Below are positions 25,801 to 50,223 of a stretch of DNA of 64,000 nt, one piece after another. The position numbers and the translations under genes were made by a program. The DNA is taken from IMG/VR virus record IMGVR_UViG_3300030098_004828, positions 177,754 to 241,753 of that record; one strand, written 5' to 3'. This DNA is from a virus. A model generated the notes under the pieces. It ran no database searches and was not told the origin of the DNA. It saw only the letters and a program-made list of their open reading frames with translations. The stretch's first letter is position 1. Each line of letters opens with the position of its first letter.

Positions 25801-28800
25801 TATTCTCATCAATTACCTACTTATCATTTAACTAAGGTTGCAGAAATTAATAAAAAAGATATTGAAGGTTTAGATGAATTAAGATTAGGAGATGGATATT
25901 TAAATGCTAACTATCTACTAAACCATCCTGCGTTTCAACAACTTGTTAAAGAAAATAAATTTAGAATTGGTAGAGTAAGTGGAAAAACAAAAGCTTGGAA
26001 TGTAATAGATCCAGATACAAAAACTAAAATTGCTACATCACAATCTGAAGGTATACCTTATTCAGAATTTGGAGATGCTGATTTTTTAACATCATTAATA
26101 AATTTAAAATTAGCTGGGTTTGATTCACGTAATAATAAACTATTTAAAAAAGATGTAATAAAAGAAGATGGAACACCATATGTTTTAGCTCCTGTATTTA
26201 TTCGTGTAATAGCAGATGCTTCTACAGGAGACTTTACTTATCTTCCAGTTTTACAAAGTGTTAAATTTAATGAAAGAGGGTCAATAGAATTTACTGATGA
26301 GTTTTTAGATTCTATGGAAGATCTTATTGAAAATGAATATAATAGAATCTTACAGAATGCTGAAAAACTTTTAGGTAGTAATGAAAATGTAGATACGTTC
26401 CTTAGAAAAACAATAGGTACAGGTGAGATTGTAGGATTTAATGAAGCTGTTTCAAAAGATGATATAAGTGATAATCCTGAACAAGATAGAGCATTTAAAA
26501 TAACAAACAATGCTCAATTGATTACAGCAATGATAGCTGAAGGAATGACTTTAAAAGAATCTATAGCTACACTTGCATTAAGAAAAGCAGAACAAACTAT
26601 GAATCTTCCTGAGTTTGTTATGGATACAACATTAGAAAATCCAGATGGTAGTAAAAGACTTGGTGAAACAGAAATTAAAACTACTCCGGTAATAGATAAG
26701 AAAACAAAAAAGAAAACACAAAAGGTAGAACAAACAATAAAGTTAAATGAGTTTACATTAGATGAATTCTATGATCAATTCTTTGATACTAAAAATCTTG
26801 CTGCTAAAGCAACTGTTCAAAGATTAAAAGAAAACATTGAAAAGAGAGATGGAAAAAAAGTAAAAAAAGAATATGTAATTGATAGAATAAAAAAACTTAT
26901 ACCAGACCTACAAAGTGCTCAAGCTTTTGTTTTATTACATGAACAATTTCATATAGATGAAAATCATTATAAAGATATAGAAGGTAAAGAAACACTTACT
27001 GAAGAAATGGAGGTTTCTGCAAACATGTATGCTCTTGAAGAGTTACAAAATAGATCTAAAGCTAAAAAGCAAACAACTGAATCACCTAATATATTACCAA
27101 AGGGAATATATAAACCTAATACAGAAGTTAAAAAGATATTAGAGGATAATGCTTTAGATAATAAATCTTTTGATGAAGTAAGAAAAATTCTTGAAGATGC
27201 TGGTATCCCTTTAAGAGATGTTATAGCAAGTAGATTAAATTTTGAATTTGATAGATTTATAACAAGGTTAATAGATCTAAACATAATTGAAATAAAAAAG
27301 AATGGTGACTATGTATTAAATGGTCTTGATCCAGCATTTTTAAATGGGTTTACAAATGATAAAGGTCAAAACTTAAATGAAATAAATGAAGAATTTCACT
27401 TTCAACCTGGAGAATTACTATTTAATTTAAGACAAATATTCTTTGATGATTATAGGAATACAAAATCAATTAATGAAATATTTTTTGGTGATCAAGCTCA
27501 AGTGTATAAGAATGTAATTGAGGCTATTAAAAGAGCAAAAGGTTCTAATGCTTCAGGTATGAATGTTGAGTTTGGTTTCAAATGGGAAGTAAGTGATACA
27601 TTAACTATTAGACCTTCATATCAAATAGCAGCATTTACACATAAAGATGTTGAATTATCTAAACAATATTCAGAGGGTCAACAAGAGGTGCAAGATGCAT
27701 TAGTAACAATGTCAATACAAGGATTTGCACATTGGAGAGCTGGTCTTGGTTATTTAAAACCAGCTCAAGCTAAATTAATAGACGATTTAATGCAAGGTAA
27801 GCATGTTACTGTTGAAAGACTTTTAGGAAATGGAATAGATACTACAGGTTTAATGCATGAAGGACTTGGTATTAATTCTAAAAAAATGGTATATGATGAT
27901 GGAAAGTCATATATAAAAATGTCTGTAAGAGTGTTAACACCAGACTTTACAACAGATCTAGATACAAAAGAACCATTACCAGGAATGGAAAAACTTCATC
28001 ATTTAAGAGAAAAGATAGAAGCTAAAGAAGAAGAATTATTAGATAAAAATAAAGCATTAGGATTTGATCATTTTGTACCAGTAATAGCTGTACCAGAATC
28101 TGCTTCTAAAAAGTTTAAACAAAATTTAGCTGAAGCAGAAAGTGCATATGATGAAACTACTATTCTTGATAGAAATATAGTAATGCTGGATAGCAAGTTT
28201 ATGAAAGAACAACAAGTAGTTCCTAGTAATAAGATTGAAATTGTAGATCCAAGACAAATTATAAATCTATTAATGAATGAACAATATGATGATAGTGTAA
28301 CAGTAACAATACGTGGAGAAAAATATTCAGTTGCTGATCTTAAAAGATTGTTTAATACAAATGTAGGTCTTAGACGTGAACTTGATTTTACAAATAAAAG
28401 AAATACAATATTAACATTCAATGATGTTAATGTAGATAATCATGTATATAATAGATTGTTTACAGATCATTTGGATAAAATAAAAAGAGGTGAAGTTACA
28501 ATAGATCTAGCTGCGTTTAGAAAGTTTGCATTAAATAGTTTAATGGCTGGTAAAAGTAAAGCTCAGTTGTTAGAATTTTTTGAATCAGATAATTATAATC
28601 TAAACAATCCTTTTACTAACCCAAAGTTTGAGGAATTATATTTTTCATTTTGGAAAGATGGATTTACAACTAAACAACCAGGTTATTCATTAACACTTGT
28701 ATCAGATGTAGGTTATAAAGTTGTAAAGAAAGTTATTGAAGTTGATAAAGAAACAGGAGAACCTACAAGATGGGAGGTTATACCAAAACAAACCTGGATG

Positions 28801-31800
28801 GCTATGACAAAGAATCCTAAAAAGTTTGGTTTAGATAAAGCTCCTACATTAGCAATGAAAGATTTTACTGATCAAGAAGCTGCAACGTTTGGTAAAGATA
28901 ATTTGAAGGAAGGTGATTATTATTTAGATAATCTAAGACATAATGTTATGGAGTATGATTCTAAAGGTAGACCTACAGGACAAAGATATACTGAGTTTGC
29001 AATGCCTCCTCACCATGCAAGTATACTAAAATACTGGAAACCAGGTATGCCAATAGGAGATGTATTAGGTAAAGGATTTGGTATACGTATTCCTACGCAA
29101 GATAAACACTCTGCAGCTAATATGAAAGTTGTAGATTTTATGCCAGCTTACTTTGGGTCTTCTGTTATAGTGCCTAGAGAAATAACTGAGATATCAGGAT
29201 CTGACTTTGATATAGATACTCAATATACTCATTTCAAAGAGTTTTATGTAGAAAGAAAATTAGTTAGAACTGCTGATGAAATAGAAGCAGATTGGAATAA
29301 ATATGTAACAACTCCTTATTCAACAAGAAGAGGGGGGCCTTTAACTACAAGAAGAAGTGATCCAGAATTTGAAGTTGAAAAATCTAAACGTTTATATGCA
29401 GCAAAGATGCGTAGAGAAACAGGTTTAAATTATACTTGGAATAACAGAACAGAAAAGTTTGAAGATGTATATGAAGGAAAGTTTATTGAATATGGAACTG
29501 CTGATACAATAGAAAAAGAATATCAAGAGTATATTAGATATATGATTAAGCAAGCTAGAAAGCCTGGATCAGCTGTAAGTATTGCTATAGATAAATATCA
29601 ATCTAAACAAGGGGTATTAGTTATTGAACAATTTAAAGCAAAAGATTTAGAGATATATGAAAATTCTACATGGGAAGAAATTCAAGAATACTTTAATGAA
29701 AAAGATGATAAACAAAGATATACAAATAGACTACTACTTAATGTATTAAAAACTGAAATGCATCTTCCTGATTCATTAGATACTTATAAAGAATATAAGA
29801 AATTTAATAATGGATCAGAAATGGTGGGTGGGGTAGTACCTTATAAAGCTGCATATAATAATAGAATCTTAGATCTTAAATTTGGATTACTTGGAAATGA
29901 TAATATAACAAAACCAAGAAGAGATGCAGCAATAGCTAAAGGTAATCCTTTGGCTGTACAGAATCAACCTGCTGATTTAGATCCTTTAAATGATAAAGAT
30001 TTACAAAAGAAAATAAATGAAGCATTAAAAGAAGATAAAGATATAGCAGAACTTATAAAAGAAACAACACCTGCAGTATGGCAACTTATACAAGTTAAAG
30101 CTCCTTTACTAGCACAACAATTAGAAGAAGGTAATCTTGATATTGATAACTTATATGGAAAGTCTATAATGAAATCAGCTAATGCAATGGGTACATCTAT
30201 TGTAGGAGCTGCAGTTCAACCAAATGTTGTTACGGCAATACTTAATTCTTTTGGTATTAAAATTCAAACAGCATATAGATATGATACTGAGATAGCACCT
30301 CTATATTTAAATGGTATAACTTATGATGATTATTCTACAAACTTTTTAATAGATCCTAAAACAGGAAAACAAGATCCGGGTAGAAGAAAAGCTTATGTAA
30401 TATCTGCAATTATTACAGCTTTAACAGATAATGCTAAAGAACAATTAACTGGTAAAACAGGATTACAAGTAGGAGTATTAGGTATAGTTGTAAATATGTT
30501 AGCTCTTGGTGTAGATACACAAACAGCATTTGGAATGATTAATCATCCTGCTGTTAAACAAATTTTATTAGAATCAGGAGGTATAAATGTAATTGGTGTT
30601 GCTCAAGGATATATAAAATCAATAAAGCAAGCAATTAAAGATAAGAAGTATACTCCAGAACAACTTAAAAATAAAAGAACTCAGGTTAATGAAAAAGATC
30701 TTTGGGATGATATTAATAAGAATTCATATGAATTACAAACTAATATTATAGAAAATGGATTAGAATATTTACCTGTTCTAGAACAACTTGTTTCAATACA
30801 ATATACTAAAGAATATACAAGTAAAATAATTAAACTTATAGAGTTACTTAAAGCACCTCCTAGAAACTTATGGGGAATGCAAACTGTTATGGCAGCTGCA
30901 AACGATCTTGGTTTAGATCAAACTGATTATCAAATAGAAGTGAAAGATAAAACTCCTCCGTTTGATGTTAGACCTATATTTGAAAATATAAATAATCATA
31001 TGGGAGAATTATGGCAACAAGTTAAAGAATTAAATGCTATAAGTCCTAATGTATTTATTGCATCAAGTACAATGTTTGGTAGAATTGAAAATATTATACA
31101 TAATAGTTCTAGTTTATTTGGTGAACAAGGTCAAAGAGATAGAGAAAAAATTAAGAATAATATTATTAGTTATTTGATGATTGGTGCTTACAAAGCAGCT
31201 GGTACTAAATTTAATGAAACTTTTAATAATGGTTTAATATATCCACAATTAGAAGGTGTTAAGATTACTGATATTATAGGACAGATAAAAAAGATATTAG
31301 AAAATAAAGAAATTGATGGAAAACCAAGAACAAATTATTTTATTAATTTTTATATAGATACAATAAAATCAAAAGATGGTTCAGAGATTGATAAGGTTTT
31401 AACTAATACATTCACTAAAATTTCTGATGCAGAAATAATGAGAATTCAAGTTAGTCTTTTAGAACTCATGGATCCTAGAGATAAAAATTTATCTAAGTTA
31501 GCACAATCTCTAATTAATTATCTTATAGTTAAAGATGGAATGCAATACAGATCAGGTTCATTTGTTAATGCTGTTCCAGCACATTTATTTGAAAACTTTA
31601 TTGCTCATTTAGATAGAATACAAGATGTATTTAAAAAGCTTGAAGGAATAAATGAAATGACATCTGCAGAACGTATGGCATTAAAAGATGAATTATCTGA
31701 TATATTTGGAGAAGATTTTAATAACTTTAGTTTAGATATGATAGACAATATGTTAACTCATATATCATCTAATGGTCATATAAAAAATAATTATCATAAG

Positions 31801-33192
31801 GATAGTTCAGATAAACCTGGTTCTCCTATTGTATTTACTAAACCTCAAGGTAAAAATCCTGCAAGATTGGTTATAGATTTAACTATGGGTACAGGTCTAG
31901 CAATACAACAAGATGAAAGTGATGTTTCAAATGTACCTGTAAAACTTATAACAGATAACGAATTAGTTAATGGTAATAGAGAAGAAATACGAAAATCTAA
32001 CTTAGCTGAATCAGTTAAAGTTGAAGTTGTTAAAAATGGTGTGTCTCAATATAATAATATGTCTAAGTTTCCTTATATATTAAAGTATACTTATACAGTT
32101 GGTTACGGACGTCAAAAACAACAAATTACTAAGCTGTTTAAACTAAATAAAATATATAGCCCGTTAAATGATAAAGATACAGGTTCAAGAAATAACTTAT
32201 TTAATGTTCTTGATTCAAATCAATTGGTGGGATATAGGGCTGAATATATAGATATAACAAATCAGCAAACAGGTTCTTCAGATCAATTTGCAGGAGGAGC
32301 TATAGCTGGAGCTTTACCATTTAACAATGTAGTAAAAGAAGATGCTAGTGAAGAAGTAAGTACAGATAAAGATAAAGGCAAGAAAAGTAAAGGAACTAAA
32401 CCTAAAGGTAATTATGAAAATACAATGTCTTCTGTTAAAGCTACTGAAAATGGTGTTGAAGTTACAACTGTCAATGGAAATACACATAACAGTAATGAAG
32501 TAGATCTTAATAATGCTATGAACCAAGAAGGTGAAGTAGGAAGAGGGGGATCAGTTCTTGATCTAGAAGGAATGGTTGGTAAAGAAGAAGAATTACCTTC
32601 TTTTGAAGAAGCAATAAATATAGTTTCAGAGATGGAAGATACTATTAATGAAATTGCAATGCAACCTGATAATGTAGCTAAAGTACTTTCAGGAGAAAAA
32701 ACTACTACATTAAGAACAAAAAATTTACCAAGTGGAGTGTATAATATTGGTGGACAATTATTTAATTTAACTAATAGAGGAAACTTAACAGTAGAAGAAG
32801 CAGGTGGTGTAGAAGCTATAACTAAATCAGAAGCATTTGCAAAAACAGGTCCTAAATTTTCATCAACAAAAAAATGGCTTGAAGGAGAAGGAAAACTATA
32901 TGTATATGATATTACACCTGTTAGTGAAACTATTAATGAGGCTGAAGCAGCTTTTGCTGAAACATATGATAGTGAATCTGGTCAATTAGAAATAAACTTT
33001 GGTGATGAGGTTGGAGCATCAAGTAATAAGCTGGAAAAGTTTATGGAATTATGGGAAGAATTAGATGTAGAAGAACAAAAAAAAATAATCCAACATTATG
33101 AATTAACAGCAATTGATAATGATATAGTAATTAATATGTTAATGGATAAATCACCAAAAGAAGTAATAGAACGTTTGAAAAAATGTAGTTAA
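16813..33192 (+). CDS. 5459-residue polyprotein: virion RNA polymerase core, two zincin domains, ASCH-like C-terminus
   Basis: One uninterrupted frame of 5459 residues. Residues about 270-330 and 590-630 hold hydrophobic helices. A first metallopeptidase-like site, HEAFH, starts at H2317, with a downstream YEEYMADEF supplying a likely glutamate ligand (gluzincin pattern). A second, HEQFH, starts at H3376, with EMEVSAN near E3400. The RNA polymerase signature lies at about residues 4090-4140: RIPTQDKHSAANM, then DFMP, then SGSDFDIDTQY with D4131, D4133 and D4135 as the probable Mg-binding aspartates of the second double-psi barrel. The order matches the R-x-P ... DFDGD region of multisubunit and crAss-like polymerases. 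Residues about 5275-5390 resemble an ASCH/PUA-like domain (VLSGEKTTTLR). Known crAss-like phages package such a polymerase to transcribe early genes. The zincins may cleave this or neighbouring proteins; that is inference. Confidence 0.85.
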   Translation: MAENLNNIPTVEDSGNLGSVPTETANIGPGQTPMFNLPSASINPANFAPDYKTALDQIDFSPLTERAYGPSPVNPETAKLIEMAAIPINRIASPAYNNINSTAPGRATGGYNPYSQQGQLDLTTKQGRNERLAQAFMNASDSTGADTTPGYQDPLVFGSKKFNYDRMMAHPNSGELGFHPLYDNESYYNKNSTWYDDSRRMGKQWRRMFSNAFMSSYRNIGDMLSGNWSWSDDEGAAIMEDAMRIGSSTRGGFTEWLHNTTLSSAYTAGIMTNIGVEMGVLALATAATGGTAAPATVTKAAQSLYSGVRGIFNSVKSVSAISNTLKAFRLPTVSKDFWNAFNATKVAQGISTAGQYTAKFLTPSTLKAFKDLRTSAAALDDMSQLAKTSKVFGAFYNDMRYINLAVAESRLEAGLVENETFSKLYQEFTHANGRPPNKEELALMRQQSIRAAKTTFMFNAPIIYLTNKVTIEKWMGKIKSLSGMVNMKGMAARFVKSPGKFGKDVYKGFGSMREMIMAGGLRHNAKYIGGAALRYAADGVNEGLQEVYQETVSAAATHYYAGLYQQPIAAGYDIFEVAMTKDSSDKAMQAVRHGLAHGPSWGVFASGFFTGMLVAPYSKVMFQGIPNLFQMATNNEQYQKDKKTREDWIKQTEKELNKMAEDPKFFFDPKKLNVIAQKQLDDEYWNFGIQGDILNFIDTKEHSMFQHIYTALQLGNLNEFRDYINDILQLDDQALEEAFMDKNTGKVKDGYTAEQLRKHFDGLNEKLDVIEDNYNNFDIDNPFDRNKYEEGTRDYYEEQIREYAFNHAKMQMIFNSNAMNDAASRKESIEAAITAITGMSDLIIDDLMILTSRRDIFQEINNLNRDIESLKYSKTPDDKKELAKLKKKKKLLEDFYEVLGDPENQHKSSKEYRNDKRIKQQGTPYKKRHHKIKERLKEMVEEKSLPDSIDDPKYGEKDTKDSIAKITSQDRDITYIYNLHKDGSISYTAKVKNDILDKEFKSEKQLESYIKKKEKTVYETVIDKKTGKPKKVGTYKTYVQEVMLKYKRDAKSMKKLMKVFTPYVEFLVKESGGKPINADQMKNVLSMIVDYGHLNFRISDMYKANQILSDPASLKRYSERISIPMIRLWKRHKRNQGRRVRKFVDKEIRKQYLKTLAKAGIFVDPKQVKHFLSVENLTQADIPTTFLTDTGEMLYDPVFGHTNQKQYEIMVQARQVLIDELIAPKEEKKDDGDGVDTKTIDDGSTAEDALNEDLTDDPQEKEEIKRIKDELNEFKSEDEDTIAILTREYEKYRKAAIALNMPILSQAQWLQQKGGGRAILQARYQAYSVYNEDEDKDQYETFNDWLRANVRSDKIQNIVEKFGLAPYAIMIEDVTSSKKLKDGVLLQGEVDASQGKYADYDMFIIKTPGAFVDGKQQFIYRIVNSKGKNVYDEGTYNNLNLPQEIFDNGYLTLGEANNAIKEILKAIPENTTFNFEGQTFKKGDRVSYKGKNYVVLNDAADFTSRGKLMVRDELFPEAEPITIAPGEFTGWKKEETSNQYFKEAIVVGENVQRLSHGKGMTFGKPMNHELNKNSEIKNEKDLQTVLKNMDPERRKKLRIQITRAKQPNKKHGESVNMNHGEINPVIKKGSKRFNVLLIDPDSGDVIGRLDGLDNFIFIDKKTGKSITPLEMTLDNVFDYFRNFKSKTAKQQLKEIKENYAQLTLIEELFDELLDETGTDKVTIGLDSLKKGKINKSLNISATDKGKELTEKLKDVFVHVTPGSKIFTERGKKDHETPIKELKYKYINQNGNMFILDTSNLGSDISDLEYSNQLAIREAIDRQGLGGLTGRYILAVRTPNNMYKGGYFHLVELRTTSMSQEDTQLLFNDIMSQQKLTVSTNINKRGKVLQDKKKGLGFKFNEAFNIDVQNKMYIAMPHGHNVNIILQPSGDITFKFSQTRDAGGQTFKVNLNRKTITDAKLESMQDLLDLASSGLREIFQNELNNNPQFIIPLGFGVELQASKLGGTPRNLNVSQIRNTIKADPTLTELEADGIVAIAPKDVTGNVFAQLRYNNTEEVNNLIASKNNKTQIEKDRANPSEIKNDLFTFERYQKAGWHHYPEAALKALAIKMLTDENLLTEDEKKIIAATKLEEKLKTGEIEVNVETNTEGGVGIVGDETQEELMQKKERIEEKIKEAEQQAEDKIWDEIEGANPNLSQEDKNDLFDKAMEEWEKSPDEGYVSLQNQKKEIDSKIKAGKIIRHDNYDGNDIVDLDEFIAWLKENLPGFISVEAIEQLGINLATNGVTVGTFAMTLKNIAGKINVEGKIYTGANSPFKYHEAFHAVYRMLLTQEEQKRLQGLAEKEVNKKLNSKSGYRYQGKTYKSLDTLLKDFRKESILYTQLSKSELKKRLYEEYMADEFDKFKVNPRNSKTNSEIKNFFTRLIEFIKSIFRNFSGNDLRSFYEKIDSGKFKNTTLQDNEFTRPGQEVNPAQEITQYATKIVIGQQTIKKSVLNRETNKNEIKPVNENIYMPADEEIQLRNNIAALFLKRMANNAELNKAALLQKTVQDYINIYNPKLSRHKKSADYRNLRRTLKAKLDGLKNAESDIILSVKNYLNLFDVNIDLANVSDKDIQDLEGFTPGGAKAWEASANKQGGLRKLSRDIRIFIGSTSMPASEALLEDQLYGITGVPTIDKETGKLVESDIEELVVSVDAATVYNGMLKSAGNSSTQLEVLQKMIMFGKNNPQTGAVVDNLMNKAGIQVRDYDRILMLDSSEPVGAIGPVSDPVFLNAVIKQMTQFTSDYLRIEENTNPETGAGVVSIYAANHADDISAQLDRWRKRFFTIKTYRWEHQKKAKRSREAAAGFANFISIINAGKALNEQQLEDKASEISKNLRNLTGIDLSVGFIKYSILHELNNKGVQLEPLQENFLNRNSDSYAMTLNDANKLAGLLQNNIDILSRSKEKFSKETDDRVKKEKVDHRKDGAEGSLRDMARGNAVFDENVGNTVFTDEKGDLIYSHQLPTYHLTKVAEINKKDIEGLDELRLGDGYLNANYLLNHPAFQQLVKENKFRIGRVSGKTKAWNVIDPDTKTKIATSQSEGIPYSEFGDADFLTSLINLKLAGFDSRNNKLFKKDVIKEDGTPYVLAPVFIRVIADASTGDFTYLPVLQSVKFNERGSIEFTDEFLDSMEDLIENEYNRILQNAEKLLGSNENVDTFLRKTIGTGEIVGFNEAVSKDDISDNPEQDRAFKITNNAQLITAMIAEGMTLKESIATLALRKAEQTMNLPEFVMDTTLENPDGSKRLGETEIKTTPVIDKKTKKKTQKVEQTIKLNEFTLDEFYDQFFDTKNLAAKATVQRLKENIEKRDGKKVKKEYVIDRIKKLIPDLQSAQAFVLLHEQFHIDENHYKDIEGKETLTEEMEVSANMYALEELQNRSKAKKQTTESPNILPKGIYKPNTEVKKILEDNALDNKSFDEVRKILEDAGIPLRDVIASRLNFEFDRFITRLIDLNIIEIKKNGDYVLNGLDPAFLNGFTNDKGQNLNEINEEFHFQPGELLFNLRQIFFDDYRNTKSINEIFFGDQAQVYKNVIEAIKRAKGSNASGMNVEFGFKWEVSDTLTIRPSYQIAAFTHKDVELSKQYSEGQQEVQDALVTMSIQGFAHWRAGLGYLKPAQAKLIDDLMQGKHVTVERLLGNGIDTTGLMHEGLGINSKKMVYDDGKSYIKMSVRVLTPDFTTDLDTKEPLPGMEKLHHLREKIEAKEEELLDKNKALGFDHFVPVIAVPESASKKFKQNLAEAESAYDETTILDRNIVMLDSKFMKEQQVVPSNKIEIVDPRQIINLLMNEQYDDSVTVTIRGEKYSVADLKRLFNTNVGLRRELDFTNKRNTILTFNDVNVDNHVYNRLFTDHLDKIKRGEVTIDLAAFRKFALNSLMAGKSKAQLLEFFESDNYNLNNPFTNPKFEELYFSFWKDGFTTKQPGYSLTLVSDVGYKVVKKVIEVDKETGEPTRWEVIPKQTWMAMTKNPKKFGLDKAPTLAMKDFTDQEAATFGKDNLKEGDYYLDNLRHNVMEYDSKGRPTGQRYTEFAMPPHHASILKYWKPGMPIGDVLGKGFGIRIPTQDKHSAANMKVVDFMPAYFGSSVIVPREITEISGSDFDIDTQYTHFKEFYVERKLVRTADEIEADWNKYVTTPYSTRRGGPLTTRRSDPEFEVEKSKRLYAAKMRRETGLNYTWNNRTEKFEDVYEGKFIEYGTADTIEKEYQEYIRYMIKQARKPGSAVSIAIDKYQSKQGVLVIEQFKAKDLEIYENSTWEEIQEYFNEKDDKQRYTNRLLLNVLKTEMHLPDSLDTYKEYKKFNNGSEMVGGVVPYKAAYNNRILDLKFGLLGNDNITKPRRDAAIAKGNPLAVQNQPADLDPLNDKDLQKKINEALKEDKDIAELIKETTPAVWQLIQVKAPLLAQQLEEGNLDIDNLYGKSIMKSANAMGTSIVGAAVQPNVVTAILNSFGIKIQTAYRYDTEIAPLYLNGITYDDYSTNFLIDPKTGKQDPGRRKAYVISAIITALTDNAKEQLTGKTGLQVGVLGIVVNMLALGVDTQTAFGMINHPAVKQILLESGGINVIGVAQGYIKSIKQAIKDKKYTPEQLKNKRTQVNEKDLWDDINKNSYELQTNIIENGLEYLPVLEQLVSIQYTKEYTSKIIKLIELLKAPPRNLWGMQTVMAAANDLGLDQTDYQIEVKDKTPPFDVRPIFENINNHMGELWQQVKELNAISPNVFIASSTMFGRIENIIHNSSSLFGEQGQRDREKIKNNIISYLMIGAYKAAGTKFNETFNNGLIYPQLEGVKITDIIGQIKKILENKEIDGKPRTNYFINFYIDTIKSKDGSEIDKVLTNTFTKISDAEIMRIQVSLLELMDPRDKNLSKLAQSLINYLIVKDGMQYRSGSFVNAVPAHLFENFIAHLDRIQDVFKKLEGINEMTSAERMALKDELSDIFGEDFNNFSLDMIDNMLTHISSNGHIKNNYHKDSSDKPGSPIVFTKPQGKNPARLVIDLTMGTGLAIQQDESDVSNVPVKLITDNELVNGNREEIRKSNLAESVKVEVVKNGVSQYNNMSKFPYILKYTYTVGYGRQKQQITKLFKLNKIYSPLNDKDTGSRNNLFNVLDSNQLVGYRAEYIDITNQQTGSSDQFAGGAIAGALPFNNVVKEDASEEVSTDKDKGKKSKGTKPKGNYENTMSSVKATENGVEVTTVNGNTHNSNEVDLNNAMNQEGEVGRGGSVLDLEGMVGKEEELPSFEEAINIVSEMEDTINEIAMQPDNVAKVLSGEKTTTLRTKNLPSGVYNIGGQLFNLTNRGNLTVEEAGGVEAITKSEAFAKTGPKFSSTKKWLEGEGKLYVYDITPVSETINEAEAAFAETYDSESGQLEINFGDEVGASSNKLEKFMELWEELDVEEQKKIIQHYELTAIDNDIVINMLMDKSPKEVIERLKKCS

Positions 33193-42874: not shown

Positions 42875-43183
42875 ATGGAGTACTACATCTTTACAGTTAT
42901 AATTACAGCACTAACAGTATTGTTTAGTACAGAGGCATGGAGGTATTATAAATCTAAATTAGATATTAACTACAATAAAGAATCTATGGCAGCTAAAAAA
43001 GAAAGAGAGTATACAAATAGTCTTGTAGAAAGAGTATGTAAGCTTGAAGATCTTTTGGGAGAAAGCTCTGCAGAAAAAGATTTTTTAAGAGAGAAAGTAT
43101 TAGCATTAACAGAAGAGGTAGCAGGTTTAAGAGAAAGAGTTAAGTTTCTTGAAGCTGAAAATGAACGTTTAAAATTATTATAG
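42875..43183 (+). CDS. Membrane-anchored coiled-coil protein (i-spanin-like architecture)
   Basis: A 102-residue protein. Residues about 4-22 (YIFTVIITALTVLFSTEAW) form one transmembrane helix, followed by a charged heptad-rich coiled coil (LVERVCKLEDLLGE, then LREKVLALTEEVAGLRERV). One N-terminal anchor plus a coiled coil is the layout of inner-membrane spanins and of some phage membrane scaffolds, but no sequence family is recognised. It starts a chain of five closely packed genes, three of which have an N-terminal membrane or export segment. Confidence 0.6.
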   Translation: MEYYIFTVIITALTVLFSTEAWRYYKSKLDINYNKESMAAKKEREYTNSLVERVCKLEDLLGESSAEKDFLREKVLALTEEVAGLRERVKFLEAENERLKLL

Positions 43184-43432: not shown

Positions 43433-43717
43433 ATGGCAAAAGAATTAAATGAAGACACAGGTTTTAAGGTAAGTATAAAAACACTTATAGGAATAGGGGT
43501 TGCAATGGCTACAGTTATTGGTATGTGGTTTGCACTTCAAGCAGACATTGAAGAAGCTAAAATGCTTCCAGAACCACCAGCACCAGATGTAACAAGAATG
43601 GAGTTTGATATGAAGGATAAAAATATACGTCTCACTATTGAGAATACTCAAGATGATGTGACAGAAATTAAAGAAGATTTAAGACGTATAGAAGACAAAA
43701 TTGATGATTTAAAATGA
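43433..43717 (+). CDS. Membrane-anchored coiled-coil protein
   Basis: A 94-residue protein with one transmembrane helix at about residues 16-34 (LIGIGVAMATVIGMWFALQ), a Pro-rich hinge (MLPEPPAPD) and a C-terminal coiled coil (VTEIKEDLRRIEDKIDDLK). The layout recalls XhlA-like or spanin-like phage lysis accessories, but the order (membrane first, coil last) and sequence do not allow a firm assignment. Its stop overlaps the next start by four bases (ATGA), indicating translational coupling. Confidence 0.6.
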   Translation: MAKELNEDTGFKVSIKTLIGIGVAMATVIGMWFALQADIEEAKMLPEPPAPDVTRMEFDMKDKNIRLTIENTQDDVTEIKEDLRRIEDKIDDLK

Positions 43718-44037
43718 AAAACCTAACATATATATTTTTACTATTTGCAGCTACAGTTAGTGCTCAAATAGAAGTTGTTCAATATAATGCGGGATGGAAT
43801 TCTAGCAATGATGTTGAATGGGTAGAAGAACTTACAGATTGTGAAATAAATTATATTGATATAGCTGCTAAGCCAAAACAGCAAGCAAAAAATAAAATAG
43901 AAGTAGTTCCTACTATCATAATATTTGATGAAGGTGAGGAAATAGAAAGATTTCAAGCAGATATATCTTTTAGCATAAAAGCAACAAGAGAAGAAATACA
44001 AGAAATAATAGATGAATTAATTGTAAATAAATTTTAA
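43714..44037 (+). CDS. Exported thioredoxin-fold protein lacking the CxxC pair
   Basis: A 107-residue protein. A signal peptide is visible (YIFLLFAATVSAQ), with cleavage likely after VSA. The mature part follows the thioredoxin plan: a VVQYNAGWN strand and turn where the active site would be, a DCEINYIDI strand, then VVPTIIIFDEGEEIERF with the conserved cis-proline (VPT). The WCxxC motif is absent: GWNSSND stands in its place, with one cysteine further on. It is therefore unlikely to be a disulfide oxidoreductase and may act as a periplasmic binding or adaptor module. It is coupled to the upstream membrane gene. Confidence 0.65.
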   Translation: MKNLTYIFLLFAATVSAQIEVVQYNAGWNSSNDVEWVEELTDCEINYIDIAAKPKQQAKNKIEVVPTIIIFDEGEEIERFQADISFSIKATREEIQEIIDELIVNKF

Positions 44038-44176: not shown

Positions 44177-44647
44177 ATGGCTTCAATAAAGACAACTTTT
44201 TCTATTATTGGTACAGGTGCCTCTTCAACAAATCCAATTAGCATTACACCACAAGCTGCTACAATTACTGTAACAGATCCTGAAGAAACAGGAACATTAG
44301 ATGTTAGTGCAACTGGAGTTTCTGGAGATGAACAGATTATAATTAATCCTACTGCTTCAGATAGTACAGCAATGGGTGCAACTGCTGCTGGTTCTTGGGT
44401 TTACTTAAGAAACGGTGCTACAACTGGTTCATCTTTACTAAAGGTTCAAGCTTACTTAAAAGCAGCTGAGCAAGCAGGTGGAGCAGCAGCTATGTGGGTT
44501 ACAATATGTTCACTTAAACCAGGTGAATTTATGTGGTATAGCCCAGTTAATGTTACTGATGGTGGAACAGATATAAAAAGAGGTTGTAAGGTAGTTAATT
44601 CAACTGCTACTGCGACAACTTGTGAATTCGCAAGGTTTAATAGATAA
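44177..44647 (+). CDS. Small beta-sandwich virion (decoration-type) protein
   Basis: A 156-residue Thr/Ala/Gly-rich protein with no signal peptide. A central AGSWVYLRNGATTGSS strand-turn and a LKPGEFMWYSPVN motif parallel the equivalent parts of 44666 (AYMFLKMTGDSGDTG, then RHNDFCFFRVPGG) and 49861 (AYVYVVNTASDAAHT, then EAGEWGFFAIPNG). The three look like diverged members of one fold. Head decoration or fibre tip is the most likely role. Confidence 0.6.
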   Translation: MASIKTTFSIIGTGASSTNPISITPQAATITVTDPEETGTLDVSATGVSGDEQIIINPTASDSTAMGATAAGSWVYLRNGATTGSSLLKVQAYLKAAEQAGGAAAMWVTICSLKPGEFMWYSPVNVTDGGTDIKRGCKVVNSTATATTCEFARFNR

Positions 44648-44665
44648 TTTTAAAAAATAATAATA

Positions 44666-45046
44666 ATGGCAAATTTAATATGTACATTTACCGCTCAAGA
44701 AACAAGTCTGGGACCTGATAAAGTAACTATTAGTGAGTTAAATAAAAGTTTTGTTGTAGAAACTCCTACTATTTCAGCTGGTGCTACCGTTGCTGCAGGT
44801 GTAACTAAAACAATTTTTACTGCTCCAACTAAGGATGCTTATATGTTCCTTAAAATGACAGGTGATAGTGGAGACACCGGTTGTGTTGTTGATGTTAATG
44901 CTCAGCCCGCTGCTACATTAAGACATAATGATTTTTGTTTTTTCAGAGTTCCTGGTGGTTTAGCAGTAACTGTTGAAAATAAAGCAGGATCTACTTCTAC
45001 TATTGAGTGGTCAACTTGGGAATGTGAGACTCAAGTAGCACGATAA
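44666..45046 (+). CDS. Small beta-sandwich virion (decoration-type) protein
   Basis: A 126-residue protein related in layout to its neighbour at 44177 and to 49861: a hydrophobic YMFLKM strand, a Gly/Asp turn, an HNDFCFFRVPGG strand-loop and a beta-rich end (STSTIEWSTWECET). No export signal. It lies 12 bases before the signal-peptide-bearing 45059 gene, so virion-type and exported proteins alternate here. Confidence 0.6.
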   Translation: MANLICTFTAQETSLGPDKVTISELNKSFVVETPTISAGATVAAGVTKTIFTAPTKDAYMFLKMTGDSGDTGCVVDVNAQPAATLRHNDFCFFRVPGGLAVTVENKAGSTSTIEWSTWECETQVAR

Positions 45047-45058
45047 TACTAATCTACA

Positions 45059-48000
45059 ATGAAGTCCTTTATAAGACATAGTCTAATATGGATTGTGTTA
45101 TTCCTGTGTTCTACAGTGAATGCTCAATCCATAGACTCTTGGATAGAGATAGAATTTCAATTTGATAATTATGCAGAAGAAGTATCATGGAGTTTATATA
45201 ATTCCACTGATACTATTTCTATTGATACAGGTTTTTACACAGCAGGTCAACCTAATGCATATGAATTTATAGAATTAGATTCAGGAGATTATACATTTCA
45301 ATTAATGGATTCATGGGGTGATGGTTTATCATGGCCTCAAGATGGTTATTGTTTAATATCCAACGAGTGTCAAGATACTCTATTTTATGCATCAGGTAAT
45401 TATGGTTTAGGTTTAATTGAATCTCTTACAATTGCTCCATGTGCTCCTCCAGAGCCTGCAGTAATTGATTGTATGGATGAAAACGCAACAAATTATAATT
45501 CAGATGCTGATGTAAATGATCAGTCTTTATGTGAATATCCACCATGTGAAGGTTGGGGTGAACCTTTTGTAGATCAGATATGTGATGGTGGTCAAGCACT
45601 TCTTTATTGGAATTGGGAAGCTTCAGATAATCCTAATTGCAATGTAATTCAAATAACTTATAGCGGTGAAAATACTAACTCTTATAACTTTGATGTTAAT
45701 ATAGACAATGGTATATGGGGTGTTTATACTGGCAATGGTCAGATGCCTCCTAATTGGGAAGAAGAATATTCATTCCAAGCAATGTTTGCTGATAGTACTA
45801 TGTCAGATACTTTAACGTATACACCATATCCGTGTACACAAGGATGTACAAATGATGATGCTCCTAATTATAATCCATGGGCTACAGTAGACGATGGGTC
45901 ATGTGGAGGTCAAGCATGTGATGTAGGATATACTTCTATAACAATAGATATAACTTTAGATAATTGGCCAAGTGAAACAGGTTGGTCATTAATTAGTGGT
46001 GGTGTAATAGATGAACACATTGATGGAGATTATAATTATCAAGATATAGGTCAAACATTTTCATATTCTTACTGTGTAATGGAAGCCGGATTTGAATTTA
46101 TTATATCAGATACATATGGTGATGGTTTAGCTGGTTCAACTACAGGCGGAGATCTGGATGGAGATGTTCTTATTAGAGGTTGTAATGGAGATACAATAAC
46201 TCAATTATCTAACGGTAATTGGTTAAACGCAGCTCAAGAAAATGTAGGTGTTGGTTTTGGTAGTGTAGCATATTCAGGATGGCAACAAGCTATTATATGT
46301 GAAACAAATGATGTTGCAGGATGTACTAATCCAATATATCAAGAATTTAATCCAGAAGCTGTTATAGATGACGGCTCATGTGTTACAGAACATATATATG
46401 GTTGTATAAATGAAAATGCATTTAACTATGATGAAAATGCAACAGCAATGGATATATATCCTAACTGTAATTATGAACTGTGGATAGGAGATGCAGCTGC
46501 TGATGGTTGGGGTAATTCATTCTTAGGAGTTGTACAAGGTGACAATCAATGGACATTTACAATGGGTCCAGGAGAATATGAACAAACTTTTCCTATTTGG
46601 TTAGAGACAGATAAACCTGTAAAAATATTTTACTTTGAGGTAGGTGGAGCACAAACTCCTCCAGAAGAAGTGGCTTTTCAAACACTACATAATTCGTTTA
46701 AATTAACTAATGCTGATGATGTTATATTAATGTATGAAGGATGGAATCCTTTTGCAAACAATGGTCAAGGTGCACTTCAAGCTTTTGAACCTCCATTCTT
46801 TCAAACATATCAAGCAATGCCTTTCTGTGGTACACTTTGTATCCCTACAGTGGAAGGTTGTTTAGATGCTACAGCACTAAACTATAATGAAGAAGCTAAT
46901 ACAGATGACGGTAGTTGTATAGAGATTATAGAAGGTTGTACTAATGAATTAGCTTTTAACTATGATGAAGAAGCTAACTATGATGACGGGTCATGTGAAG
47001 CTGTAGTTGTTGGATGCATGGATGAGATAGCATGGAACTACAATGAGGATGCTAATACAGATGGTGGTGATTGTATATACTTAGGTTGTACTGATTCTTC
47101 AGCATGTAATTTTAATCCAAATGCAAATGCAGATAGTGGAGGGTGTACTTATGCTGATCAGTATTATAACTGCAGTGATGTATGTATAAATGATGCTGAC
47201 TCAGATGGAATTTGTGATGAACTTGAAATACTAGGATGTACTAGTGTAGCTGCTATTAACTATATGCCGGAAGCAACTGATGATGATGGTAGTTGTGTTG
47301 GTATAGTATATGGCTGTACAGACCCTACTGCTTTTAATTATGACGCTACAGCTAATACAGACAATGGTTCATGTGTGCCTGTAATATACGGGTGTATAGA
47401 TAGTACAGCATTTAACTATGATCCAGCTGCTAATACAGATAATGGAACTTGTGTAGAATTTGTATACGGTTGTACTGATACTACAGCTCTTAACTTTGAT
47501 CCATTAGCAAATACATTAGATAACTCTTGTTGTTATCTTGGAGGATGTATGGATTCTACTGCATTAAACTATGATGAAGATGCTTGTTTTGATGATGGTA
47601 GTTGTATAGTTATAATAGAAGGATGTGCAGATCCTAATGCATACAACTATAATCCGCTAGTTAATTTACCAGACAATAGTACGTGTCTTTATGATGCAGG
47701 TTGTTATAGTGGACCTGGTGAACCTTATTGGTTAAATGATCCTTGCTATGCTTGGGTTATAGATATAGATAGTTATTGTTGTACAGAAATTTGGGATGAG
47801 ACTTGTCAGTCTATGTATAACTATTGTGAAGATGGCTGGCCTGTTGATTTAGATGAATTATCAGGTAGTGATATAATTGTATACCCTAATCCTACAGCAA
47901 ATACATTTACTATAGAAACAAGATTAGATATTGATGTAGAACTATATAATATAGTAGGAGAACTTATAGAAACAGATAATATTAAAAGAATAGATATATC

Positions 48001-48079
48001 AGATTATCCTGATGGAATATATAATTTGATTATTACATATGATAAAATAAGAATAACAAAAAAAATAATTAAACTATGA
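45059..48079 (+). CDS. Secreted 1006-aa repeat protein with T9SS type A sorting domain
   Basis: A signal peptide (IWIVLFLCSTVNAQS, cleavage likely after VNA) directs Sec export. The mature protein has two beta domains ending in DSWGDGL and DTYGDGL (near residues 90 and 360), a further beta domain near 475-590, and about 14 repeats of about 25-40 residues of the form GC-x4-A-x-N(Y/F)(N/D)-x2-A-x-DDGSC. The last 70 residues match the Por/T9SS type A C-terminal sorting domain: IIVYPNPTANTFTIE, then VELYNIVGE, then DISDYPDGIYNLII and a basic end (RITKKIIKL). In Bacteroidetes this signal sends the protein through the outer membrane for release or surface attachment. A phage gene carrying it is unusual. 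Its repeats match those of the virion-type protein at the left edge. The stop overlaps the following lipoprotein start. Confidence 0.85.
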   Translation: MKSFIRHSLIWIVLFLCSTVNAQSIDSWIEIEFQFDNYAEEVSWSLYNSTDTISIDTGFYTAGQPNAYEFIELDSGDYTFQLMDSWGDGLSWPQDGYCLISNECQDTLFYASGNYGLGLIESLTIAPCAPPEPAVIDCMDENATNYNSDADVNDQSLCEYPPCEGWGEPFVDQICDGGQALLYWNWEASDNPNCNVIQITYSGENTNSYNFDVNIDNGIWGVYTGNGQMPPNWEEEYSFQAMFADSTMSDTLTYTPYPCTQGCTNDDAPNYNPWATVDDGSCGGQACDVGYTSITIDITLDNWPSETGWSLISGGVIDEHIDGDYNYQDIGQTFSYSYCVMEAGFEFIISDTYGDGLAGSTTGGDLDGDVLIRGCNGDTITQLSNGNWLNAAQENVGVGFGSVAYSGWQQAIICETNDVAGCTNPIYQEFNPEAVIDDGSCVTEHIYGCINENAFNYDENATAMDIYPNCNYELWIGDAAADGWGNSFLGVVQGDNQWTFTMGPGEYEQTFPIWLETDKPVKIFYFEVGGAQTPPEEVAFQTLHNSFKLTNADDVILMYEGWNPFANNGQGALQAFEPPFFQTYQAMPFCGTLCIPTVEGCLDATALNYNEEANTDDGSCIEIIEGCTNELAFNYDEEANYDDGSCEAVVVGCMDEIAWNYNEDANTDGGDCIYLGCTDSSACNFNPNANADSGGCTYADQYYNCSDVCINDADSDGICDELEILGCTSVAAINYMPEATDDDGSCVGIVYGCTDPTAFNYDATANTDNGSCVPVIYGCIDSTAFNYDPAANTDNGTCVEFVYGCTDTTALNFDPLANTLDNSCCYLGGCMDSTALNYDEDACFDDGSCIVIIEGCADPNAYNYNPLVNLPDNSTCLYDAGCYSGPGEPYWLNDPCYAWVIDIDSYCCTEIWDETCQSMYNYCEDGWPVDLDELSGSDIIVYPNPTANTFTIETRLDIDVELYNIVGELIETDNIKRIDISDYPDGIYNLIITYDKIRITKKIIKL
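45467..47693 (+). repeat. About 14 GC...DDGSC Cys-pair protein repeats
   Basis: In the translated 45059 gene, units such as GCTNDDAPNYNPWAT + VDDGSC, GCLDATALNYNEEAN + TDDGSC and GCIDSTAFNYDPAAN + TDNGTC recur, each with one Cys near each end. Spacing is irregular early and tandem late (from about nt 46855). The DNA copies are diverged, so this is an old amplification rather than a recent tandem duplication. Confidence 0.85.
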
Positions 48080-48267
48080 AATATTTAGCAGCATTGTGGG
48101 TTTTAGTAATTGTAGGTTGCGGATTATTTAATCCTGCAAAATATAATCCTAATCCAAGACCAGTAGTAGAAGAGTGTTGTGCTAAAGATTCAATAAGAAT
48201 TGATACAATAAGATTAACAAATGGTGTTGATCATATTATTATGTTAGATACAGTAAAAATTAAATAA
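48076..48267 (+). CDS. Small lipoprotein (possible o-spanin)
   Basis: A 63-residue protein with a lipoprotein signal: hydrophobic stretch LAALWVLVIVGCG, where IVGC is a lipobox with Cys15 as the lipidated residue. The mature part is Pro/Asn-rich, has a CC pair (EECCAKD) and ends in short beta-like repeats (SIRIDTIRL, DHIIMLDTVKIK). Small lipoproteins next to phage membrane genes are often outer-membrane spanins, but the spacing to any i-spanin candidate (42875, 43433) is large. It overlaps the T9SS protein gene by four bases. Confidence 0.65.
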   Translation: MKYLAALWVLVIVGCGLFNPAKYNPNPRPVVEECCAKDSIRIDTIRLTNGVDHIIMLDTVKIK

Positions 48268-48278
48268 AATTTAAAATT

Positions 48279-48530
48279 ATGCCACAAGGAAAAGGAACTT
48301 ATGGGTCTCAAGTAGGTAGACCAAGAAAAACACAAAAAGGAGGTGCTTCTTGTTCATTAAAAGTTAAAGGTGTAAACATTTGTTCATTAACCAAAAGACA
48401 ACAAACTTCATTGCAAAAACATGCAGAACATCATACTAAAAAACATATTCAAGCTATGGTAAACGCAATGAACAATGGTGCTAGTTTTACTCAATCACAT
48501 AAAGATGCAATGCAAAAAGTAGGAAAATGA
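48279..48530 (+). CDS. Small basic phage protein of unknown function
   Basis: An 83-residue protein beginning MPQGKGTYGSQVGRPRK, an opening I recognise from small virion-associated proteins of marine phages. Two cysteines (GASCSL, NICSL) and a His-rich helix (KHAEHHTKKH) could bind metal or nucleic acid. The stop overlaps the next ATG (ATGA). The role is unknown. Confidence 0.6.
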   Translation: MPQGKGTYGSQVGRPRKTQKGGASCSLKVKGVNICSLTKRQQTSLQKHAEHHTKKHIQAMVNAMNNGASFTQSHKDAMQKVGK

Positions 48531-49585
48531 GAATAATTTTATACATATTATTACTTTTATCATTTACGATAAATGCACAAGAAGAAAGTAAATTTAAAAA
48601 AGAACTTAAAAAAACTTTTAAATTTTCTACATTCTATGCTGCAGTAAATGGTGGTACTTCTATTTCAGATCAAAATGTATATTCTGTATTAGATCAACTT
48701 CAAACCGATGTAATAGAAACTCCATTTGATTACGCACTAACTCTAGGTGTAAGAAAGATACAAAGATTTGGATACGAAAACAAGGCTAACACATTCAAAG
48801 ACGGTACAGAAACTTCATACTCTGATGCCGCTACAATAGGACGAACTAAAGGATTTGAGTTTTTATTTGAGATGGATTACCAAAGAAGATTTGGTGATAC
48901 ATATATAGATCAGAATCACTTTCTACGATACTTAGCAGATAAATGGGTTGTTAAGGTGGAGTATTTACAAGATGGCTTTGCTGATGTAGAATACATGGAA
49001 GCATCACAACGATATAGACAAAAGATAGGTAAGAGATTTTCACTTACTGCAGGGACAGCACAAAGGATCTCCGAACCTTATGGATTTGATCCGTTAGCTC
49101 AGTGGTTGTTATCCAACGGGAACTTACACTACACAAACCTTGCTTTAGAGGAAGGCTACTCAATTGGTTTTGCACCAACAGGAATAGAATACTTAGACCC
49201 TAGTGGAGCGGTCGTGGCTACAAGCAGTGAAGTTTGGGAAGAGGTGGTAATACCGCAAATGCTTGATGACTATGTTAAAGCAAGTAAAGATGCATTACCA
49301 GTACAATGGTGTCACTCTTTAGTAATTGGCTTTGACTATTATTACTATACAAAAAAGATCTGGTTACACTCATGGGGTAATGTGCTTCCTGTTCATCTTA
49401 ACACAGGAGGAGAATACTCATATCACAATTTTAATAATGGTAATTGGATAGATTATTCTGGTGGTTTAATATTTGGATATAAGATCAATAAGAACTTAGG
49501 TATCTTTGTTGAGGGTAAATATAACAAATATTGGAATAGAAACTGGCATGATTTCAAGTTTGGAATAAATTATATTATTCTTTAG
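48527..49585 (+). CDS. Exported outer-membrane beta-barrel-like protein
   Basis: A 352-residue protein with a signal peptide (IILYILLLLSFTINAQ). The mature part alternates hydrophobic and aromatic residues and has long aromatic strands (VIGFDYYYYTKKIWLHSW; SGGLIFGYKINKNLGIFVEG). It ends FKFGINYIIL, a C-terminal beta-signal pattern of outer-membrane barrels, though the terminal residue is Leu rather than Phe. It is coupled to the preceding small gene. A phage-encoded outer-membrane protein could block superinfection, change permeability, or help release; none is shown by sequence. Base composition and codon use look slightly less A/T-biased than its neighbours, hinting at separate acquisition. 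Confidence 0.65.
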   Translation: MRIILYILLLLSFTINAQEESKFKKELKKTFKFSTFYAAVNGGTSISDQNVYSVLDQLQTDVIETPFDYALTLGVRKIQRFGYENKANTFKDGTETSYSDAATIGRTKGFEFLFEMDYQRRFGDTYIDQNHFLRYLADKWVVKVEYLQDGFADVEYMEASQRYRQKIGKRFSLTAGTAQRISEPYGFDPLAQWLLSNGNLHYTNLALEEGYSIGFAPTGIEYLDPSGAVVATSSEVWEEVVIPQMLDDYVKASKDALPVQWCHSLVIGFDYYYYTKKIWLHSWGNVLPVHLNTGGEYSYHNFNNGNWIDYSGGLIFGYKINKNLGIFVEGKYNKYWNRNWHDFKFGINYIIL

Positions 49586-49860: not shown

Positions 49861-50223
49861 ATGGCAACATTAAACACAACAGTTAAATTAGAGACATCTT
49901 CTTCAGTAGCAGGTGTGTTAAAATTAGATTTTACTAATACACAACCTTTTACAATTGGAGATGTTGCTGGTGATGATCTTACTGTTAATGCATTAACTTC
50001 TCTTGTAGCAACTGGATATGGTGCTACAGCTTATGTTTATGTAGTGAATACAGCAAGTGATGCTGCACATACAATAGCATTAATGACTGATGCTGGTGTA
50101 CAATGGGGTACTTTAGAAGCCGGTGAATGGGGATTTTTTGCAATTCCTAATGGAACAGGATTTAAAGTACAAGCTGATGCTGGAGTACCTGTGCTTAATT
50201 ATGTTATAATGAAAAAAGCATAA
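49861..50223 (+). CDS. Small beta-sandwich virion (decoration-type) protein
   Basis: A 120-residue protein without export signal. ATAYVYVVNTASDAAHTIAL, then WGTLEAGEWGFFAIPNGTGF, then VQADAG forms a compact beta pattern seen in small head-decoration-type proteins of large Bacteroidetes phages. It shares the plan of 44177 and 44666. It lies four bases before a Cys-containing small gene. Confidence 0.6.
   Translation: MATLNTTVKLETSSSVAGVLKLDFTNTQPFTIGDVAGDDLTVNALTSLVATGYGATAYVYVVNTASDAAHTIALMTDAGVQWGTLEAGEWGFFAIPNGTGFKVQADAGVPVLNYVIMKKA

Follow-up and report, generated by a model that had tools for sequence, protein, structure and literature searches.

A predicted T9SS cargo protein and its four-gene envelope cassette in marine crAss-like and T4-like phages

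Substrates of the type IX secretion system (T9SS) require both a Sec signal and a C-terminal sorting domain (CTD), and type A CTDs are collected by the shuttle PorV; type B substrates are often encoded beside a barrel shuttle of their own (PMC12618676). In Flavobacterium johnsoniae, type B substrate genes stand in operons with PorP/SprF, and some of these operons add the periplasmic anchor PorE (PMC12618676). Sorting domains of this type have also been reported in phages: T9SS-tagged cargo was described in Cryophage, where superinfection exclusion was proposed (Bellas 2020, PMC7468147), and T9SS sorting domains were described in crAss-BACON phages (de Jonge 2019, PMC6949934). Here, we analyze a gene encoding such a protein, hereafter the cargo, in a 64,000-nucleotide stretch of viral record IMGVR_UViG_3300030098_004828 (record positions 177,754 to 241,753; hereafter the window). 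An earlier note, made from the sequence alone, had singled out this gene and had known of no described phage system of this kind, a view that the 2019 and 2020 reports precede and overturn. Beyond what that note proposed, the cargo gene is one of four co-travelling genes (cargo, barrel, membrane protein and thioredoxin) and belongs to an envelope cassette, a larger and better defined system. The cassette genes, and the parts of the cargo, have these window coordinates:

43433..43717, + strand: membrane protein (cassette gene 3), 94 aa, single transmembrane helix at the N-terminus followed by a coil at the C-terminus, putative N-in topology
43714..44037, + strand: thioredoxin (cassette gene 4), secreted protein of thioredoxin fold, NxxN in place of CxxC, 4-bp overlap with gene 3
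45059..48079, + strand: cargo, 1006 aa, ATG start, with a signal peptide, Cys repeats and a type A sorting domain of the T9SS
45059..45127, + strand: Sec-type signal peptide of the cargo, residues 1-23, read by eye
47684..47833, + strand: conserved Cys-rich cap preceding the sorting domain, residues 876-925 (...CYAWVIDxDxYCCxxxWDxxCxxxY..C), near-invariant alignment columns
47879..48070, + strand: T9SS type A CTD, residues 941-1004, from profile matches and seven predicted beta strands
48527..49585, + strand: barrel (cassette gene 2), 352 aa, signal peptide and predicted 12-strand outer-membrane beta barrel, from AlphaFold and Foldseek

Like the Cryophage genes, the cargo gene is a Bacteroidetes phage gene ending in a T9SS type A sorting domain, and hijacking of the host exporter was likewise proposed there. 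However, the Cryophage cargos are an endoglucanase, a GH39 protein and a PA14 protein that vary between variants, whereas in the window phage a single family of Cys-repeat cargo goes together with the barrel, membrane protein and thioredoxin. Cluster 2 of the crAss-BACON phages is similar in that crAss-like phages carry T9SS sorting-domain open reading frames (ORFs) near head genes, but these are gut phages with BACON domains, and no cassette was described there. The F. johnsoniae operons share the arrangement of a substrate gene followed directly by an outer-membrane barrel gene, although in the phage the CTD is of type A and the barrel has no detectable PorP/SprF homology. A literature search, with most subscription papers and preprints outside its reach, found no report of the four-gene cassette. 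As far as searched, the cassette is thus previously unreported, while the idea of a phage T9SS cargo is partly anticipated.

A T9SS type A substrate is expected to combine a Sec signal with a CTD of the appropriate family and fold. The N-terminus of the cargo (MKSFIRHSLIWIVLFLCSTVNAQS) is a Sec signal peptide as judged by eye, and the protein carries Cys repeats of the form GC..NYD..A..DDGSC, among which sits a single TSP3-like stretch (NDADSDGICDELE). Both the signal peptide and "about 14" repeats had been reported in the earlier note; by eye 14 repeats are indeed counted, and 12 are found by regular expression. Its assignment of a type A sorting domain was borne out by profile searches, with the CTD matching Pfam Por_Secre_tail (PF18962) at 40.8 bits (E 2.8e-10; gathering score 27 bits) and NCBIfam TIGR04183 at 36.9 bits (cut-off 23 bits). 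In an AlphaFold model of moderate confidence, residues 939-1005 form seven beta strands, as in the Ig-like fold of solved type A CTDs, and the cargo-family profile matches the solved T9SS CTD chains 8glk_D and 8glj_D. Foldseek matches of the whole cargo were all loose, to beta proteins of several domains (TM-scores by query at most ~0.1), and are uninformative about function.

The tagging signals are conserved across relatives. A scan of viral contigs with the cargo protein yielded 32 loci, and every complete cargo ORF among them has a signal peptide at its start and a sorting domain at its end; the signal peptide, visible by eye in all complete homologues, diverges fast in sequence. All 27 of the full-length phage homologues scanned with Por_Secre_tail contain the sorting domain, which rules out a chance domain match. 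Between close relatives, the ratio of nonsynonymous to synonymous substitution rates (dN/dS) is 0.17-0.22 for the whole cargo, 0.07-0.13 for the Cys-rich cap and 0.13-0.24 for the CTD. The CTD is therefore under purifying selection and is a maintained feature of the cargo rather than a relic. A chimera with host DNA, which the earlier note had considered as a refutation, is ruled out, since the gene occurs with phage neighbors in dozens of independent viral contigs, is under purifying selection and is present in both genomes of the record (see below).

Comparison of the gene neighborhoods of the cargo brought out the barrel, membrane protein and thioredoxin genes close by. A scan seeded with the barrel found at least 568 viral contigs with a barrel relative, of which the best 80 loci were analyzed. 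Among these, all four genes are present in 34 of the 34 loci with flanks of at least 5 kb and at least 4.5 kb, and the barrel lies near a contig end in each of the 10 loci that lack a visible CTD. In 47 of 70 loci the cargo gene immediately precedes the barrel gene, and Cys repeats were found in 48 of 48 full-length cargos, with 6 to 27 each by regular expression. A search of the records with the portal gene provided a seed independent of the cargo. Six long portal-seeded relatives (G002, G004, G005, G006, G007 and G009) contain cargo, barrel and membrane protein; in another, G001, the contig ends inside the cargo gene and the membrane protein is present. Cargo, barrel and membrane protein are absent from the whole record of one further portal relative (G008, 112.8 kb; L133), as is the thioredoxin from the region corresponding to the cassette, and the first three are also absent from G003 (65 kb), which is a fragment. 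As a close portal relative lacking the cassette, G008 offers a natural cassette-minus comparison. Acquisition by a single phage as a moron is ruled out, since the cargo gene is single-copy and present in nearly all long portal-gene relatives. The four-gene envelope cassette is apparently an obligate set.

The barrel has a signal peptide and, in its AlphaFold model (pLDDT 69.9, pTM 0.59), 12 long strands, the features expected of a transmembrane outer-membrane beta barrel. Foldseek with this model gave 101 PDB matches at E <= 0.001, the best being NanC (1.6e-7), and nearly all of the 50 matches listed are outer-membrane barrels. The dN/dS of the barrel is 0.08-0.09. A 342-aa viral protein in BFVD, A0A516LKJ4, is structurally near the barrel model (E 4e-19, 21% identity), and its phage could be a cultured relative.

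The window copy of the membrane protein has no Pfam or PHROG match, and its coil is probably periplasmic, judging from the charge distribution. It is the most conserved cassette member, with a mean pairwise identity of 73% and a minimum of 58% among divergent phages, followed in mean identity by the barrel (62%), the thioredoxin (52%) and the cargo (48%). This gradient is consistent with an unvarying apparatus that handles a variable surface protein. The thioredoxin has the expected fold, with clear sequence homology between its family profile and solved thioredoxins (best match 1.3e-10), but the CxxC redox motif is replaced across the family by NxxN or other non-Cys residues (W-C-x-x-C to W-N-x-x-N). 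Since both active-site cysteines are replaced, the protein is likely a binding or chaperone protein, and an active periplasmic thioredoxin that aids disulfide formation is ruled out as a redox enzyme. One Staphylococcus phage match to the cassette thioredoxin (E 8e-3) is most likely an ordinary thioredoxin.

Judged by marker genes, the cassette is common to crAss-like and T4-like phages. Six cassette records encode the T4-type major capsid protein Gp23 (PF07068, 235-247 bits), one further cassette record holds a Gp23 fragment, and others carry a crAss-like terminase (TerL phrog_6681). In the barrel tree the two kinds of phage are mostly separate; two label changes are needed, although the tree would still accommodate one. 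Because the tree largely splits the phage kinds, the claim is one of sharing between them and not of frequent recent exchange. TAA codons occur inside the Gp23 matches of G034 and G037 and inside the portal match of G010; these could be introns, inteins, errors or recoding. Upstream of the cassette by a few kb, one crAss-like contig (L040:34-2416) has genes for a chaperonin (Cpn60, 182 bits) and for a short GroES-like protein. Among 50,697 records of isolated phages, neither the barrel nor the membrane protein was found.

Searches of bacterial genomes for the barrel, membrane protein and thioredoxin found relatives in only three contigs (L139, L140 and L141), which are binned in bacterial or archaeal metagenome-assembled genomes, one of them labelled Nitrosopelagicus. 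Further phage-like genes are present in L139 (replication helicase, ribonucleotide reductase and endolysin-like) and in L141 (coat-like), and L140 is only 3.8 kb long; all three are likely phage contamination. Marine Flavobacteriales encode chromosomal Cys-repeat T9SS proteins that resemble the cargo in repeat type and partly in the N-terminal and middle regions (24-35% identity among the better chromosomal matches). These copies differ from the phage arrangement, however, as no relatives of the barrel, membrane protein or thioredoxin were found beside chromosomal cargo relatives in Bacteroidota. Cyanophage proteins offer a second comparison: S-CAM3 gp232 has similar GC..NYN..C repeats, but such cyanophage proteins have no visible signal peptide and no CTD. 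To our knowledge, the hosts of cyanophages have no T9SS. The lack of both signals in the cyanophage protein supports routing by the tag.

These observations suggest that the gene probably encodes a phage-made substrate of the host T9SS, as the variable, surface-bound member of the envelope cassette. The cargo would leave the cytoplasm by Sec; its CTD and the PorV shuttle of the host would then direct it through the host's SprA translocon across the outer membrane. In the periplasm, the inner-membrane coil protein and the redox-dead thioredoxin may handle the Cys-rich cargo, either holding it or handing it over. Since the phage set resembles a substrate-plus-barrel operon, we propose that export by the host T9SS involves the phage barrel as a dedicated outer-membrane partner or anchor, much as PorP/SprF barrels serve the host substrates whose genes lie immediately before theirs. 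The likely outcome would be a Cys-cross-linked repeat protein that coats the infected cell or goes free at lysis. Of the earlier note's reading, the part that makes this a genuine phage T9SS-domain gene stands, while its proposal that the phage uses the host T9SS to place the protein on the surface is one that we also reach only by inference.

Several points weigh against this interpretation. No homology of the barrel to PorP/SprF or PorV could be detected: the PorP/SprF model TIGR03519 matched only 1 of 19 barrel-family members (at E 0.23), and hhalign gave a probability of 4%, compared with 94% for PorP against PorV as a positive control. In addition, host type A substrates use PorV and have no dedicated shuttle. 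The order of the four genes differs between phages, and two small genes interrupt the cassette in the window. The host T9SS is itself inferred from the crAss-like affiliation of the phage.

What the coated surface would achieve can be suggested only tentatively. Receptor masking, which suits a coating protein, is in our view the likeliest use, whether for superinfection exclusion or to prevent new virions from adsorbing again to the dying cell and debris from it, but it is rather less than an even prospect, and the results fit it no better than another surface role. Slightly more doubtful is the wider proposal that the barrel is a dedicated shuttle or anchor for phage T9SS cargo in unrelated marine Bacteroidota phages, by which the virus extends host secretion and re-coats the cell.

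A real rival, though one that we regard as unlikely, is that the cassette completes lysis, with the four proteins forming a spanin-like or outer-membrane-disrupting complex in Bacteroidota and the CTD merely delivering the cargo to the outer membrane. A hol-like gene adjoins the cassette in the window, the layout of the membrane protein is i-spanin-like, and the gene right after the cassette encodes an endolysin (peptidase M15 or amidase) in L037, L040 and L138, with a similar gene at this place in L139; a narrow search placed an endolysin within 11 of the 80 barrel-seeded loci. However, most loci have no endolysin beside the cassette with the queries used, G008 does without the cassette, and a 1000-aa repeat protein selected to keep a T9SS signal would be unneeded for lysis. 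Set beside a spanin pair, the layout agrees in part; the conserved outer-membrane partner is the barrel, and the lipoprotein is unconserved.

Alternatively, the CTD could dock on the phage barrel instead of the host T9SS, making a self-contained exporter or anchor that mimics the T9SS signal. The apparently obligate pairing of cargo and barrel, the frequent position of the cargo gene directly upstream of the barrel gene and the better conservation of the barrel are all in keeping with this. Nevertheless, a 12-strand barrel is too narrow for a folded protein, and the CTD scores above the cut-off of the host type A profile, which makes such an exporter improbable. Least likely, by a small step, is that the cargo is a virion protein (a fiber or decoration) whose signal peptide and CTD are remnants of a captured host gene: the gene lies close to virion genes and S-CAM3 gp232 with its like repeat is annotated as a virion structural protein, but both signals persist in all complete homologues with the CTD under purifying selection, the cyanophage versions have neither, and virion proteins of cytoplasm-assembled phages as a rule lack Sec signals.

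With the four-gene cassette, the question no longer concerns a single unusual secreted protein but a dedicated system, one that is defined, conserved and testable, with four genes kept together across marine crAss-like and T4-like phages. Three functionally uncharacterized protein families gain a common context from it. If export of the cargo is via the T9SS, viruses would here be using an outer-membrane exporter of bacteria to remodel the infected cell's surface, in a bacterial group that is among the dominant ones in the ocean.

The 245,646-bp record (G000) consists of two related genomes of ~121-125 kb arranged head to tail. Bases 1-124,782 and 124,783-245,646 align collinearly in blocks of ~69-94% identity, and an exact 111-bp stretch is common to both genomes at the join (about 124,783; locus L005 near 9,788). 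From this alignment, the record is probably an assembly join of two circular relatives and not a jumbo phage. The window belongs to the second genome, and a search of the whole record found two cargo genes, one in each genome. Directly past the window end, at record position 241,754, there are 10 N. There are PHROG family matches for the terminase, the portal and the major head protein. In tblastn searches with the first two, most named relatives are crAss-like phages infecting Bacteroides, Flavobacterium and Cellulophaga, with 22-32% identity among the matches listed. By these genes the phage is crAss-like and far from any isolate, and its host is presumably a marine member of the Bacteroidota.

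The cargo gene lies at the end of the virion-gene arm, between an opposite-strand ribonucleotide reductase gene and the DNA polymerase block. Three further features adjoin or interrupt the cassette:

42875..43183, + strand: hol-like gene upstream of the cassette (phrog_2658 "hol-like", E 5.7e-6)
44177..45046, + strand: two small genes inside the cassette (156 and 126 aa), resembling virion or coat genes by eye, no family match
48076..48267, + strand: accessory lipoprotein-like gene, 63 aa, VGC lipobox, 4-bp overlap with the cargo stop

The lipoprotein-like gene adjoins the cargo in only some of the closest relatives and is therefore placed outside the core cassette. Small, related-looking virion- or coat-like genes of 120-156 aa surround the cassette (44177-44647, 44666-45046 and 49861-50223), and their number and position differ among crAss-like relatives. 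Promoter and terminator scans gave no signal above shuffled sequences. Several ORFs of the cassette region in the window share 4-bp overlaps (ATGA), as expected of an operon. Elsewhere in the window, positions 16813-33192 hold a single ORF of 5459 aa.
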